From NCBI GenBank assembly GCA_964017185.1, contig OZ024871.1, positions 65,352,866 through 65,416,865 of the forward strand: a DNA stretch of 64,000 bases, read 5' to 3'. Made by a program: the position numbers and the translations under genes. This document shows positions 9,101-57,100 of the stretch, in pieces. The notes below the pieces were generated by a model. It was not told the origin of the DNA, did not search any database, and saw only the letters and a list, made by a program, of their open reading frames with translations. Every line of letters starts with the position of its first letter. Positions within the stretch are counted from its first letter, which is position 1. The stretch comes from Rugalucina vietnamica (lineage: Eukaryota > Mollusca > Bivalvia > Lucinida > Lucinidae).

Positions 9101-12100
9101 ATATAAGAAGAAGAGGAAATGTACTATCCGTGTAGCGAAAACAAAGGCGCTGATCAGCTTCGCGGTTACCGCGAAGCTGATCTGCGCCTTTGTTTTCGCA
9201 TAGGCAAAAATCCGGTTTTCTCACGATGCGGCTCAAATCATTTTGAAACAAATATGCAGAGATTCTAAAGTGACAGATTTGTCTGTCAGAACCTGTTACC
9301 TACATATCAATTGCACAAGAAGACTGGCTATTTGAATGGTTCCGTGTTTTTTGGGGGAGCTTGTTCAGTAATGTCTGAAAAAGAATACAAAGCTATTTTA
9401 CAGTAGTTTAATTGTTTTTCCTGACCTCAAAATCAGAAGATTTTCCATTCTAGCAAGAAGACTGGCCATTTGAATGGTTTTGTGAGTTATTAATGGGTGA
9501 CTTGTTCAGTGGTGCCTGGGAGACCCGACATGGTGCAGCCAGTGGACTTAGGGAGGTGATCAAACTACATGGAAGAGGAGCAGGGAAATCTATGGACACA
9601 CCCTCAGACCAGGTATTTTAAAAATGTTCTTTCTTTTTGCTGTTGATAGATTTCAGCGTAGGTGCAGACCTGGAAACGTCCTTGAATTTGAAATTTGTTG
9701 TAGAAAACTTGAAGAATTTCCAAAAAGTGCCATTTGTCCTGGAATAATATTAAATTTTGTTCGGACGAAAAGGAGGATTTGTTCTTGTATTTATATAAAA
9801 TGAACCGCATCATGAGAAAAACGGATTTTTGCCTATGCGAAAATAAAGGCGCAGATCAGCTTCGCAGTAACTGCGAAGCTGATCAGCGCCTTTGTTTTCG
9901 CTACTCAGATCGTACAATTCCTCTTCTACTTAAATCCGAATTTTCAAGCTTCTAACTTTCTTCTATGACTGTGCAGCCCAGTTTGTGTCAGACCTGGTCG
10001 AAAACCCCGAAGACCGGTTTTCTTGCGTCACGGCTCAAATTTAAAAGTTCCTCTTGTTTAAATGGGATTCCCAACAACTAAAACAATTTAAAAAAAAGTG
10101 ATAAAAAGTATGGTGTGCCGCACATTCAATTTCAGTATATCTGGTAATAATGGCATTAATCACTGCCAAAGTCATAACCAGTTGTCTGAATCATGTGTGG
10201 CTTCTTGCAGTGTGGAAACTTAATGCAATATACATGTATATGCTTACTCTTACTTGAGCCGCTGCATGGGAAAACCAAAAATCTGTATAGGCGAAAACAA
10301 AGACGCAGATCAGATGTAAACTGCACAGCTGATCAGCACCTTTGTTTTCGCCACATGGATAGTACAGTTCCTCTTCTTCCTAAATCCGCAATTTCAGGCT
10401 TCTAGCCATCTTCTGTGACTGTACAGGCCGTTTGTGTCAGACCTAGTCGGAAACCCCGAACACCGGGTTTCTCGCGTCGTGGCTCATTTATTGAATTGCA
10501 TTATTTTCAGCTTTCCTCTGTGAACCAGATCTACCTTTCTGACCTGGCTCTGAGGTTACTCTGTGTTATAGCTCTTGATAGATTTGGGGACTTTGTCTCA
10601 GATGAGGTAATCTACTTAATAACAGTTGTTTTTATTTCATTTCAAAAATGGTAAGAAATTTTGATAATGGCCTCATGGTCACAAGATTTGTGTGTGTGTG
10701 TGTGTGTGTGAAAAGCTAAAAAATATAGAAACAGTTTATTTTCTGTATCATTTAGCAGGCTTAAAAAAGTGAAGAAGAAAATACTAATAAAAAAAGTCAT
10801 TTATTAAGATTGAAAAATGCATTTTCAGGCATTTGCAACCATTGAACACAAAAACTGATCAGAGTTTGACCATGCTAGCAATTTCGCTTGCATCATGGGG
10901 TTATTGCACTAACATTATGACAATTATTTAGACATCATGGCGAATATTGCAACATCAACCGAAAAGTTAATATTTAAACATTTCCATTCATGTCATATTA
11001 GGTTGTAGCTCCAGTGAGAGAGTCATGTTCTCAGTCCCTTGGTGTGGTAATGAAGTATCTGGAGACTGAGTCAATACGAGGAGTGACTAACATTCTGCTA
11101 CAGCTGCTAAAACAACAACAATGGGAGGTCAGACATGGAGGACTGCTTGGAATCAAATATCTGCTCGCTGTCAGGAGGGTAGGTCACATTTGTTTCAGTC
11201 TTCACTGCAAAGCTTTGTCTACTTTTCATTCTTTTGACATGTCGAAGAATGATGTGAGTAGATCTAAAGATCAAATCTAGGCTATTATTACAATGTGTTA
11301 AAATCTCAGTTTTTACAGTTAAAAAAACCCAAAAAAACCCCCAAAAAACCCCCTAAAAAACAAACAAAAACAAAACAACAAAAAACAACAACAAAAACCC
11401 CCCCTCATAGTGGAACATTTTTAACAAAGTAACTACATGCATTGTAATTATGTGCCTCATGTTTTTATTTCCCATTTGACTATTTCAAAGATATTTTTTC
11501 CTCTCCAGAACGTATGACCTATCGTGCTCTTGCTCTAATTCCCTTAGCAGATGATTTTATATTTTCATCGACATTGTTCATTTTATCTCTGTAGGACATG
11601 ACTAAGGACCTTTTGCCAACACTGATTCAGGATATATTCCGCGGCTTGCAAGATGTAGATGATGATGTCAGAGCTGTGGCTGCATCTGCTCTGGTGCCTA
11701 TTGCAGATGACTTTGTCACAGTTCTACCTCAGCAGGTACATGTATGTTGTTGTTACTTGATTTGGATAGCTTCTGTCCTAGACTGGTTATGCAGTTCTTA
11801 CCACTTCAGTGCCTTTTTGTACTACTGCAGTGTTGGTGGGACACCCTACTTGCCTTGATCTTTGTTTCACTACTTCACTGCCAGATTTGTACTGTTTTAA
11901 AAAATATCTCTTCTGAAAGCTTTGAATGATAATTAGATATGAGACACGAGAAAAATGGTCTACGAGGTTTCCGACCAGGTCGAACACTAACTGGCCTGTG
12001 CAGCTATAGAAGATGTTTAGAAGCTTGAAATTTCGGATTTAAGAAGAAGATGAATTGTACTATCTGTGTGGCGAAAACAAAGCCGCTGATCAGCTTCGCA

Positions 12101-54100: not shown

Positions 54101-57100
54101 GACTTTTGGTGTAAGCCATTTTATCACATGGAGATAAAACCCGGGACGTCTTAAGTCTCAATAGTACGGCACGCCGTGAATAAAATGACCAATGCTTTCC
54201 GGTATTTGGACCATGTACCAGATTTTATTGAATTTCATTTACTGCGGACTAGTGACGTAGTGCAAACATCCGGTTGACAATCGGAAACAAACTCTTCAGC
54301 TGATTTTGCATTTACGGACATTTACTGCCTCGAATCAGTCCCGAAAATGCTACTCGTCCTGTAGGGCGAGCCAGGGTAAATTTCCACTCGCCCGTATCGA
54401 ACTTTCACTCGTAAATACGAGCGGATGTGTGGATTTTTCTAGGCCTGTACTAGGTGGTTGTTAGGACAGATTGTTCTGTATTTCAGGCTCTTCAATATCT
54501 CAGGAAAGTTTGCAATCATCCAGCACTGGTCCTTAATATGGGTCATCCTAAATATGCCGAGATAATGCTACAGTTGAAACAGGATAATTCATCCCTCCAC
54601 GATATGCAACATGCCCCGAAACTTATAGCTCTCAGGTACTTGTTGTGTTTGTTATGAGCCACGACACTAGAAAACTGGTCTTCGGGATTTCCAACCAGGT
54701 TTGACACAAGCTGGCCTGTACAGTCAAAGAAGGCTGGAGGCTTGAAATTTCAGATTTGAGCCTGTGCGTGAGAAAACCAACAATTTGCATGGGCGAAAAC
54801 AAAGACGCAGATCAGCTTCGCGGTAACCGCGAAGCTGATCAGCGTCTTTGTTTTAAGCTGATCAGCGTCTTTGTTTTCGCTACACGGATAGTACATTTCC
54901 TCCTCTACTTATATCCAAATTTTCAAGATCCTGGGTTTCTTGTGTGACTGTACAGGCTGGTTTGTGTTGGACCTGGTCGGAAACCCAAATTGTTGGTTTT
55001 CTCATGCACAGGCTCATTTAGGAATAGGAAGGATTGTACTATCCATATAGGGAAAATAAAGGTGCTGATCGGCTGTGCAGTTACTGCAGTGCTGATCTGC
55101 GCCTTTGTTTTCTCATATGCAGAAATCAGGTTTTCTCATGGCGTGGTTCGTGTTGTTTTGATTTCTAACTGAAGTTCTGTTCACCATTATTTGTACCATA
55201 TTAGAGTGATAATAATATGAGTGATAAGGTTAGGTAAATAGAAGGAATTCACCATTATTTGAGTGATAAGGTTAGGTTAATTGATGGTGATAACCATTAT
55301 TTGAATAGTTTATTGCTTGATTTTCGGCAGTTTTAAATGGACTGTGGCATTACGGTTGATGACAACTATGGTCAAGCAGTCACCAATACACACCAGTCGT
55401 CAATTAACACAAACTTTTGCTCTTTTTTAAGTAAAGAATTTTGTATGATCCTAATTTTGCAAACATATGAGAAAACCAACATTTTGCATAAGAGAAAACA
55501 AACTTGCAGATCAGCTTCAGCGCCTTTGTTTTCGCTACAGGGATAGTGTAATTTATCTACTTTCTAAATGCATAATTTCCAGCTTCTAGCCATCTACTGT
55601 GCTTGTACAGCTTGGTTTGTGCTGGACCTGTTCGGAAACAACATTGTTGGTTTTCTCATGCCGTGGCTCGATAGCAATTTCAGACAATATGACTGGTAAA
55701 GGGGTCGACAACAACTGTGGTCAGTCAGTCTCCAATACATCCATCTTAAACCAACTCGGACTCTTGCTCTTATTATTTTAGAAATTTTTGCATAGTCTAT
55801 ATATTTAGCATTTTGTTTGACAATTTCAGACAATTATTAATGGACTGTGGTATTGGCGTGGATGAGAGCTCTGGTCAGTCAGTCACCGATACACCTGTTG
55901 TCAATCAGCACCGAGTCTTGCTCTTCTGTCAACTCAAGAGTATGCTGGATATTGTGGAACAGGATCTGCTCAAGTAAGATTTAAATGGATGCACATTTGA
56001 GCCACCTCGTGGGAAAACCAACAATGTGATTTCTGAACAGGTCTGACACAAACCGGCCTGTACAGTCACAGAAGCAAGCTAGAAGCTTGAAATTTCGGAT
56101 TTAAGAAGAAGAGCAAATGTACTATCCGTGTAGCGAAAACAAAGACGCTGATCAGCTTTGCGGTTACCGCGAAGCTGATCTGCGTCTTTGTTTTCGCATA
56201 TGCAGATTGTTGGTTTTTCCATGAGGCGGCTCATTTATAGACCTTACTCGAGAACAACCACATTTTTATGTAAGCTTATTTACGAGTTAGCTGTCCGTAC
56301 TGTTCAATATAGAGAGCTAAATTTGTGGCAATTGGTGCAAACTACTCTTATTACCAAACCTGTTATAACGGAACTGTTAGCCTGCTAAGACATTGGGACA
56401 ACATATGAGCCGCCACATGGGAAAACCAACAATCTGCATATGCGAAAACAAAGACGCAGATCAGCTTCGCCTTTGTTTTCGCTACACGGATAGTACAATT
56501 TCTCTTCTACTTAAATCCGAAATTTCAAGCTTCTAGCTCTTTTCTATGCTTGTACAGGTCGGTTTGTGTCGGACCTGTTCGGAAACCACATTGTTGGTTT
56601 TCCCACGAGGCGGCTCATATGGTAAATATGAATTTAAAAAAAAAGTATGGTCTTCATTGATGATATGAGCCACGTCATGAGAAAACAAGATTTTGGCATA
56701 TTTGATAAACCAAGGTGCAGATCATATGTGCAGTAATTGCACAGTTGATCGGCATCTTGGTTTTCATTACAATGTATAGTACAATGCCTCCTCTTCTCAA
56801 TTCCAAAATTTCTGCAGACAGGTTTGTGTCAGACCTGGTCAGAAACCCTGAAGACTGGTTTTCTCATGATGTTGCTCATATGTAATAAGAACTTCTATAA
56901 CAAGATGACAGGCTATATCATGATAGGGATGGTGAATAACACATTATCGTTACAGGAGTCAGATGTCATCAGTGACCTACCTACGACTTGATGGTAGTGT
57001 ACCTGCTATGAACAGACATGATATTGTCAACAGGTATGCTGTGCTAATTACGGTAACACGTCTTTGTAGATAAAACACTGCTCACCTTTCCTTATAAAAA

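Follow-up and report, generated by a model that had tools for sequence, protein, structure and literature searches.

Partial, same-strand copies of exons beside their source exons in a bivalve BTAF1 gene, probable relics of short tandem duplications

The locus

The window analyzed here, a stretch of 64,000 nucleotides from the lucinid bivalve Rugalucina vietnamica (GenBank assembly GCA_964017185.1, contig OZ024871.1, positions 65,352,866 to 65,416,865 of the forward strand), carries an orthologue of BTAF1/Mot1, a protein of the SNF2 family that removes TBP, and this report concerns decayed copies of parts of its exons that lie beside the exons themselves. The gene runs on the + strand from 31 to 60160 in 36 exons and covers about amino acids 86–1848 of the human protein. 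A tblastn search with human BTAF1 gave exon matches in order over 31–60154 with a few weak ones out of order; 35 of the 36 exons had a match, two of these at an expect value (E) above 0.01, and exon 4 is an open frame alone. The segment for amino acids 1–85 was not found in the window by this search with the human query. The translated exon chain matched the SNF2, HEAT, Helicase_C and DUF3535 domain families and, in the PDB, chains listed as 'Helicase-like protein' (E down to 5.7e-146), which we take to be Mot1. Rfam and transfer RNA scans returned nothing. Partial exon copies had been proposed in this gene in an original prediction made from the sequence alone, whose exons 25, 26, 32 and 33 are exons 24, 25, 31 and 32 in the numbering used here. 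All features below are on the + strand and in window coordinates.

Exon part-copies and chance

Each of the 36 exons was aligned to 2 kilobases (kb) on either side and scored against 200 dinucleotide shuffles of the exon, and in a second test, with interspersed repeats cut out beforehand, 300 shuffles were used over 300-base-pair (bp) bins. Copies of exons 5, 14, 24, 25, 31, 32 and 36 outscored all 200 shuffles in the 2-kb test, and in the nearest 300 bp the same seven outscored all 300, with exons 8 and 9 weak (p=0.003). The nearest bin reached p<=0.01 in 9 of 71 exon-side tests, upstream of exons 5, 8, 9, 14, 24, 31 and 32 and downstream of exons 25 and 36, as against 3 of 71 at 300–600 bp (exons 6 and 13 and once more exon 36) and, at 600–1500 bp, a single one of 212 (exon 16). 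Self-BLAST of the window recovered the seven strong loci, with a best E per locus of 1e-6 to 3e-20; the only other direct matches no more than 3 kb apart, repeats excluded, were a pair of 48 bp and two related intron arrays with a unit of 187 bp. In the reverse-complement control none of the 71 tests scored at least 90 within 600 bp, compared with 8 of 71 on the forward strand.

We regard it as confirmed that part-copies beside seven, perhaps nine, of the 36 BTAF1 exons are real. The copies that had been predicted beside exons 5, 14, 24, 25, 31 (two) and 32 (two) are all present, and in the repeat-masked self-comparison with shuffles that had been proposed as a check, the matches beat the shuffles at seven loci. 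The predicted exon 9 copy is present as well but is weak (p=0.003), and the more general proposal that many places in the gene are affected holds, with seven strong and two weak loci. The exon 36 array with its three copies, the weak exon 8 copy, the regular spacing of about 150 bp and the rule of sides described below go beyond what had been predicted. A different explanation, that the matches are chance similarities or an artefact of assembly, can practically be dismissed: chance is ruled out by the shuffles, self-BLAST and the reverse-strand control, which speak against an artefact also, and the 13 aligned copies are 61–87% identical to their exons, in our judgement too diverged for merged haplotypes.

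Several further candidates were set aside. An exon 4 match at 7476–7640 stood above 200 of 200 shuffles but was not significant near the exon after repeats were cut out, and an exon 30 match at 52974–53069 in the 2-kb shuffle test falls in a masked repeat. The exon 6 match (9628–9653, 26 bp) stood above 300 of 300 shuffles at 424 bp from its exon with repeats removed, and the exon 13 and exon 16 matches lie more than 300 bp away; being short or distant, all three were left uncounted as relics. If real, the exon 6 match falls outside the 131–171 bp range of spacings reported below.

Content of the copies

The copies are in direct orientation and close to their sources, as in tandem (direct) duplication, and at most loci their content is one-sided. 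Upstream copies mostly represent the start of the exon. The exon 5 relic (9317–9377) holds the first 64 of 158 bp and lies 138 bp upstream of the stretch that it matches in the exon at 9455–9612 (52/60 identical, none of 300 shuffles as good). The exon 14 relic (27503–27599) has an intact AG acceptor followed by 87 bp of exon at a shift, or distance from the matching part of the exon, of 170 bp (75/97 identical, E 2.7e-14), and its frame is open with no insertion or deletion (indel) and no in-frame stop. The exon 24 relic (44426–44540) likewise has an intact acceptor, at a shift of 161 (79/106 identical, none of 300 shuffles as good, E 5e-17). At exon 31 the first relic (53739–53871) comprises intron flank, acceptor and about 97 bp of exon, again unequalled in 300 shuffles, with the flank itself significant (p=0.001 and, in a second local test, 0.0005) and a shift of 171 as masked, or 162 if the target-site copy of a later insertion is also removed. 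It is followed at 53866–53897 by a further copy of the intron flank, the start of the next unit (36.6 bits), which matches the flank of the real exon 31 at 29/34 positions, a score reached by none of 2000 shuffles. A second exon 31 relic (53654–53690; 28/37 identical, 30.7 bits), two units upstream at a shift of 324, is mid-exon sequence. Exon 32 also has two relics, both with the acceptor, of which the AG can be read in the second: the first (55675–55797, shift 146) is 75/105 identical over 55675–55771 with E 1.3e-5 and reaches 55797 through a 25-bit match between the two relics, and the second (55320–55462), two units upstream at a shift of 297, is 95/128 identical over 55328–55462, with none of 300 shuffles as good.

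The downstream copies represent exon ends without an acceptor. That of exon 25 (45769–45906, the end being predicted from the shift of 138) carries the exon from 45631 on, a decayed donor and probably intron; it is 48/61 identical over 45769–45829, none of 300 shuffles being as good, and the intron part gave p=0.093. At exon 36 the end of the exon, with its stop codon and 3′ untranslated region (UTR), forms the first of four array units (60096–60239), with limits chosen by us, in an array that extends from 60096 to about 60660 in steps of about 145, 151 and 131 bp. The second unit (relic a, 60240–60388, shift 145) is 102/139 identical over the unit, UTR included, and its UTR part alone (57/75) was equalled by none of 1000 shuffles; the third (relic b, 60389–60527, shift 296) is 52/62 identical with a UTR part at p=0.053, and the fourth (relic c, 60528–60660, shift 427–428) is 45/61 identical, neither being equalled in 300 shuffles. 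The matched stretches past the last exon are 60253–60304, 60396–60455 and 60528–60587.

Two loci are weak. The exon 8 relic (11476–11578, shift 155, p=0.003) is 61/100 identical with six indels, and its core at 11510–11560 matches exon positions 11665–11716, interior to 3′ sequence that stops 19 bp before the donor. The exon 9 relic (11826–11858), a copy of the 5′ part, lies 138 bp upstream with a repeat cut out (27/33 identical, p=0.003); a possible fragment of the exon 9 3′ end with its donor at 11772–11789 (shift 293 with the repeat removed, 18-bp match, 27.7 bits) is tentative and may be a chance match.

Considered together, the acceptor AG is kept in copies of exons 14, 24, 31 and 32, counted upstream alignments stop 14–94 bp short of the donor end of the exon, and downstream copies begin well inside the exon, at 45631 of 45575–45726 for exon 25, with a decayed donor, and at 60095 of 59897–60160 for exon 36, where the stop codon and UTR are included. 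A working alternative tandem exon would have a splice site on either side and an uninterrupted frame; here the donor is missing upstream and the acceptor end downstream, and we reject that reading. Retrocopies are rejected also, given the AG in copies of exons 14, 24, 31 and 32, intron sequence amounting to tens of bases at exon 31 and 3′UTR at exon 36, and on this evidence the earlier view of the copies as local genomic duplications is upheld.

Spacing and origin

With insertions removed, the shifts for exons 5, 8, 9, 14, 24, 25 and 31 were 138, 155, 138, 170, 161, 138 and 171 bp, and repeated units stood at 171 and 324 for exon 31, 146 and 297 for exon 32, and 145, 296 and 427 for exon 36, the values at exons 9, 31 and 32 hinging on insertion cut points and being good to about 10 bases. 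Spacing per locus had a mean of 152 (standard deviation 13, n=9), and all 13 steps at the nine loci had a mean of 150 (standard deviation 12, range 131–171 bp). Under the best-fitting exponential above 75 bp, a floor that is our estimate of the needs of detection and splicing, the chance of falling in 131–171 would be 0.20 per locus and about 5e-7 for nine. Unit length was independent of exon length (Spearman 0.01), and over the nine loci the spacing was never more than 23 bp above exon length (the maximum, at exon 31) and was below it at exons 5, 25 and 36.

We think it probable that the relics are short direct tandem duplications with one end of the unit in the exon and the other in the neighboring intron or UTR, the unit being about 130–170 bp. 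Head-to-tail duplication of flank, acceptor and 5′ part would leave a donor-less copy upstream of an intact working exon, and duplication of 3′ part, donor or stop, and flank would leave an acceptor-less copy downstream. In both cases the messenger RNA would stay readable, and the copies could survive and then decay, as opposed to units with a whole exon or wholly within an exon, which would change the protein and be eliminated by selection; where the event recurred, arrays would arise, as at exons 31, 32 and 36.

An alternative history is that whole exons with their introns were duplicated and the copies later halved by deletion. Pseudogenic exons are a known fate of exon duplicates (PMC2718932), and both the possible 3′ fragment of exon 9 and the interior and 3′ sequence of the exon 8 copy could be read this way. 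However, the donor side is absent in counted upstream copies and the acceptor side in both downstream cases, and with a spacing that surpasses exon length by no more than 23 bp, an entire exon and a functional intron could not have fitted. The missing half therefore most probably never belonged to the unit and was never copied. A history of whole-exon duplication is not the most economical and we consider it improbable, and with it the proposal in the original prediction that the 3′ half had been lost.

Flank or unit repetition is seen directly at exons 31 and 36, where head-to-tail order is well supported. At the other loci this order is suggested by flanks that score above their shuffle means, with a combined p=0.011 for exons 5, 14, 24, 25 and 32 and p=0.004 when the third exon 36 unit is added as a sixth; the flank tests covered these five exons together with exons 31 and 36. 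Several observations weigh against the short-duplication reading. The intron flanks at exons 5, 14, 24, 25 and 32 are individually only weakly alike (p=0.05–0.20 against shuffles), and 1, 3, 3, 3 and 5 of 31 flanks from other exons reached their respective scores; a local flank test gave p=0.07, 0.86 and 0.77 at exons 5, 14 and 24, and in the second relic of exon 32 the tail gave p=0.32. The tentative fragment of exon 9 that lies two units upstream has the 3′ end and donor, contrary to the rule of sides, the exon 8 copy, mostly interior and 3′ sequence, fits it poorly, and the second exon 31 copy is the middle of the exon. The dependence of three spacings on cut points and the closeness of repeat edges to several predicted unit ends, described below, belong here as well. 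Weak flank likeness is nevertheless expected because both copies of a flank decay, and for these loci we infer the head-to-tail order, as we do the filtering by selection and the molecular origin.

Decay

Copies and exons differ at 76, 62 and 111 sites by codon position, of 249 in all, so that decay falls at all three positions, which is consistent with a copy that decayed neutrally and an exon that underwent some silent change as well. Indels or in-frame stops occur in nine of the 13 aligned copies, as they do in disabled pseudogenic exons; the copies of exons 14, 25, 31 (second) and 36 (relic c) are open over the aligned stretch, though partial. There were about 25 indels to the 249 substitutions, a ratio that is perhaps low since alignable parts alone were counted. 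The range of identities is in keeping with the different stages of decay that had been described earlier, but no copy exceeds 87% identity (0 of 13), and hence the accompanying claim of an ongoing process is not supported.

Exon edges and the size of the unit

The size of the unit suggests one nucleosome or one Okazaki fragment, the size of Okazaki fragments itself following nucleosomes. It is possible, though we hold it tentatively, that duplication was limited by nucleosomes or Okazaki fragments with exons, which are richer in guanine plus cytosine (GC), preferred, which would add a cause to the short-duplication reading. The narrow range of 131–171 bp over 13 steps at nine loci (about 5e-7 under the exponential), the lack of any relation between unit length and exon length (Spearman 0.01) and the GC content of exons (45%, against 35% in non-repeat introns) favor it. 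So does a deficit of copies in other intron: about 24 kb searched at shifts of 120–185 gave no match of at least 24 bits where 13.8 were expected (P=3e-4), the expectation being derived by applying the rate at exon edges (8 loci in 5,719 starts) to 17,030 eligible starts in introns, with a detection of 0.58 at that threshold in simulated intron duplications matched to the relics in age. Relic-relic matches at exons 31, 32 and 36 reach 24 bits though both sides decay, the arrays themselves having been found via the exons. The deficit shrinks, however, as indels are made commoner and longer (P=0.0014, 0.021 and 0.27), and one intron-only pair, at shift 106, scores 26.7 bits. Two related intron arrays with a unit of about 187 bp (20872–22062 and 31760–34040) were excluded as satellites, and if they were counted as intron events the case for exon preference would be weaker. 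In human data, no association was seen between the lengths of repair-related deletions and nucleosome periodicity (PMC6451188).

Alternatively, duplication may be even everywhere, with exons revealing it through a conserved copy and through near-exon intron that is shielded from large deletions, a serious contender to which we give slightly less than even confidence. Such an effect is expected in principle, and it is consistent with two-sided flank likeness that is weak at most loci and with the loss of significance for the absence of intron-only copies under heavy indel loss (P=0.27). But 10–18 intron-only copies are expected at a near-observed indel rate, against none of at least 24 bits at shifts of 120–185, and the sole intron match in that range above 20.5 bits (20.7, shift 126) spans a cut-out satellite. 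Intron-only autocorrelation at shifts of 130–175 gave 28 weak matches against 25.2 expected, with no hidden signal. We regard the preference for exon edges as suggestive; the fuller proposition, that a recurrent germline process duplicated about one nucleosome of DNA (131–171 bp) and was favored at exon edges by nucleosomes or Okazaki fragments there, seems to us doubtful.

Two observations on the introns may be set beside these. The best intron-only pair at shifts of 100–199 outside the arrays is 35935–35979 with 36041–36085, the pair at shift 106 and 26.7 bits. The two related arrays with a period of about 187 bp lie in different introns, and their unit is again near nucleosome length.

Repeats and palindromes

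It has also to be considered that interspersed repeats take part, with insertion, excision or repair beside an exon making the duplication. Near 9240, 45906, 60660 and 44700, repeat edges lie 1, 12, 12 and 31 bp from the predicted unit end at exons 5, 25, 36 and 24 (four of six loci, with no null for comparison), though they are not always edges of palindromic repeats. Repeats cover 26.5 kb of the 64-kb window and such nearness is partly expected; moreover, none has an edge within 1.3 kb at exon 14, and relic exons are not significantly nearer to palindrome cores than other exons (median 351 against 792 bp, p=0.36). We consider a role for repeats quite improbable. Promotion by palindromic repeats, as first put forward, is not supported, and the two palindromic-type repeats found within the arrays of exons 9 and 32 are read as later insertions; that between the exon 32 relics, a member of the palindromic family of interspersed repeats, occupies 55464–55669 in the repeat mask. 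The exon 31 spacer is likewise split by a later insertion at 53903–54446, presumably of the hAT group, with ends AGGCCTAGAAA and an 8-bp target-site duplication GTACTAGG. A dispersed, near-perfect palindrome element (GCGAAAACAAAGGCGCTGATCAGC...) occurs at 9135–9219, 54793–54877 and elsewhere, and 32 matches to the core motif were counted in the window.

Relation to known duplications

Satellite monomers of nucleosome length exist, and the unit described here is similarly near one nucleosome; unlike satellites, it is unique gene-edge DNA in 2–4 copies at several places, with no single amplified family. Small tandem duplications are also made in paired-nick models. Duplications made by Pol alpha-primase at DNA breaks are described as the commonest short (<100 bp) human insertions (PMC8355091), and they resemble the relics in that short unique DNA is repeated head-to-tail, which makes them a likely mutation class, but the units here are 131–171 bp and their junctions are old. 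A further source might be microDNA, small DNA circles derived from exons and re-inserted by their source, because its hotspots include exons and its lengths follow nucleosome periodicity (PMC6511871). These circles are mostly 200–400 bp (PMC6511871), and no feature of the relics sets such an origin apart from ordinary tandem duplication; we think it very unlikely.

The closest known counterparts are the pseudogenic exons of mammals, which are also decayed, disabled single-exon copies near the parent gene. They occur in 0.4–1.0% of genes with 1.3–2.0 per such gene, more than about 75% are at least half the parent length, about 55% are near full length and 12–22% are on the opposite strand (Morais & Harrison 2009, PMC2718932). 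In BTAF1, by comparison, 7–9 of 36 exons of one gene are affected and the counted copies are all partial, none is inverted and the spacing is about 150 bp, although the methods of that study differ from those used here and a strict comparison of rates is not warranted. The tandem duplication of exons that yields alternative exons (PMC9013439, PMC6071210) is similarly local and may include adjacent intron, but those exons are spliceable and these are pieces of exons that lack either a donor or an acceptor. Exonize seeks exon copies inside introns, degenerate ones included, and its headline result is full-exon duplication in at least 4% of vertebrate genes (PMC12343006), as opposed to the partial copies found here. 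No report of a half-exon tandem pattern was found in the open-licence papers searched, which is not proof of novelty. Pseudogenic exons as such are already known; what we regard as new are partial, same-strand and evenly spaced copies, and these rest on one gene.

The parent copy is held by selection, and relics can therefore measure short tandem duplication over long times. If this is true, exon edges would be a fossil recorder of a duplication size and rate that are invisible in ordinary introns. Should 131–171 bp hold in other genes, it would point to a mutation length set by chromatin or replication and to a source of intron growth, and the one-sided rule, with 5′ parts upstream and 3′ parts downstream, would separate such relics from dead whole exons. 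It is possible also that the intact acceptors without a donor in several relics act as decoy splice sites.

Other features of the window

The 48-bp pair detected by self-BLAST (13629–13676 with 14572–14619) is 38/48 identical at 943 bp apart and may be a dispersed repeat. In the introns flanking exon 12, arrays with a 165/166-bp unit lie next to CGTCGTCCGTC microsatellite tracts at 15454–17164, 18697–20877 and 22460–26105, and these look like mobile elements that bear tandem repeats.

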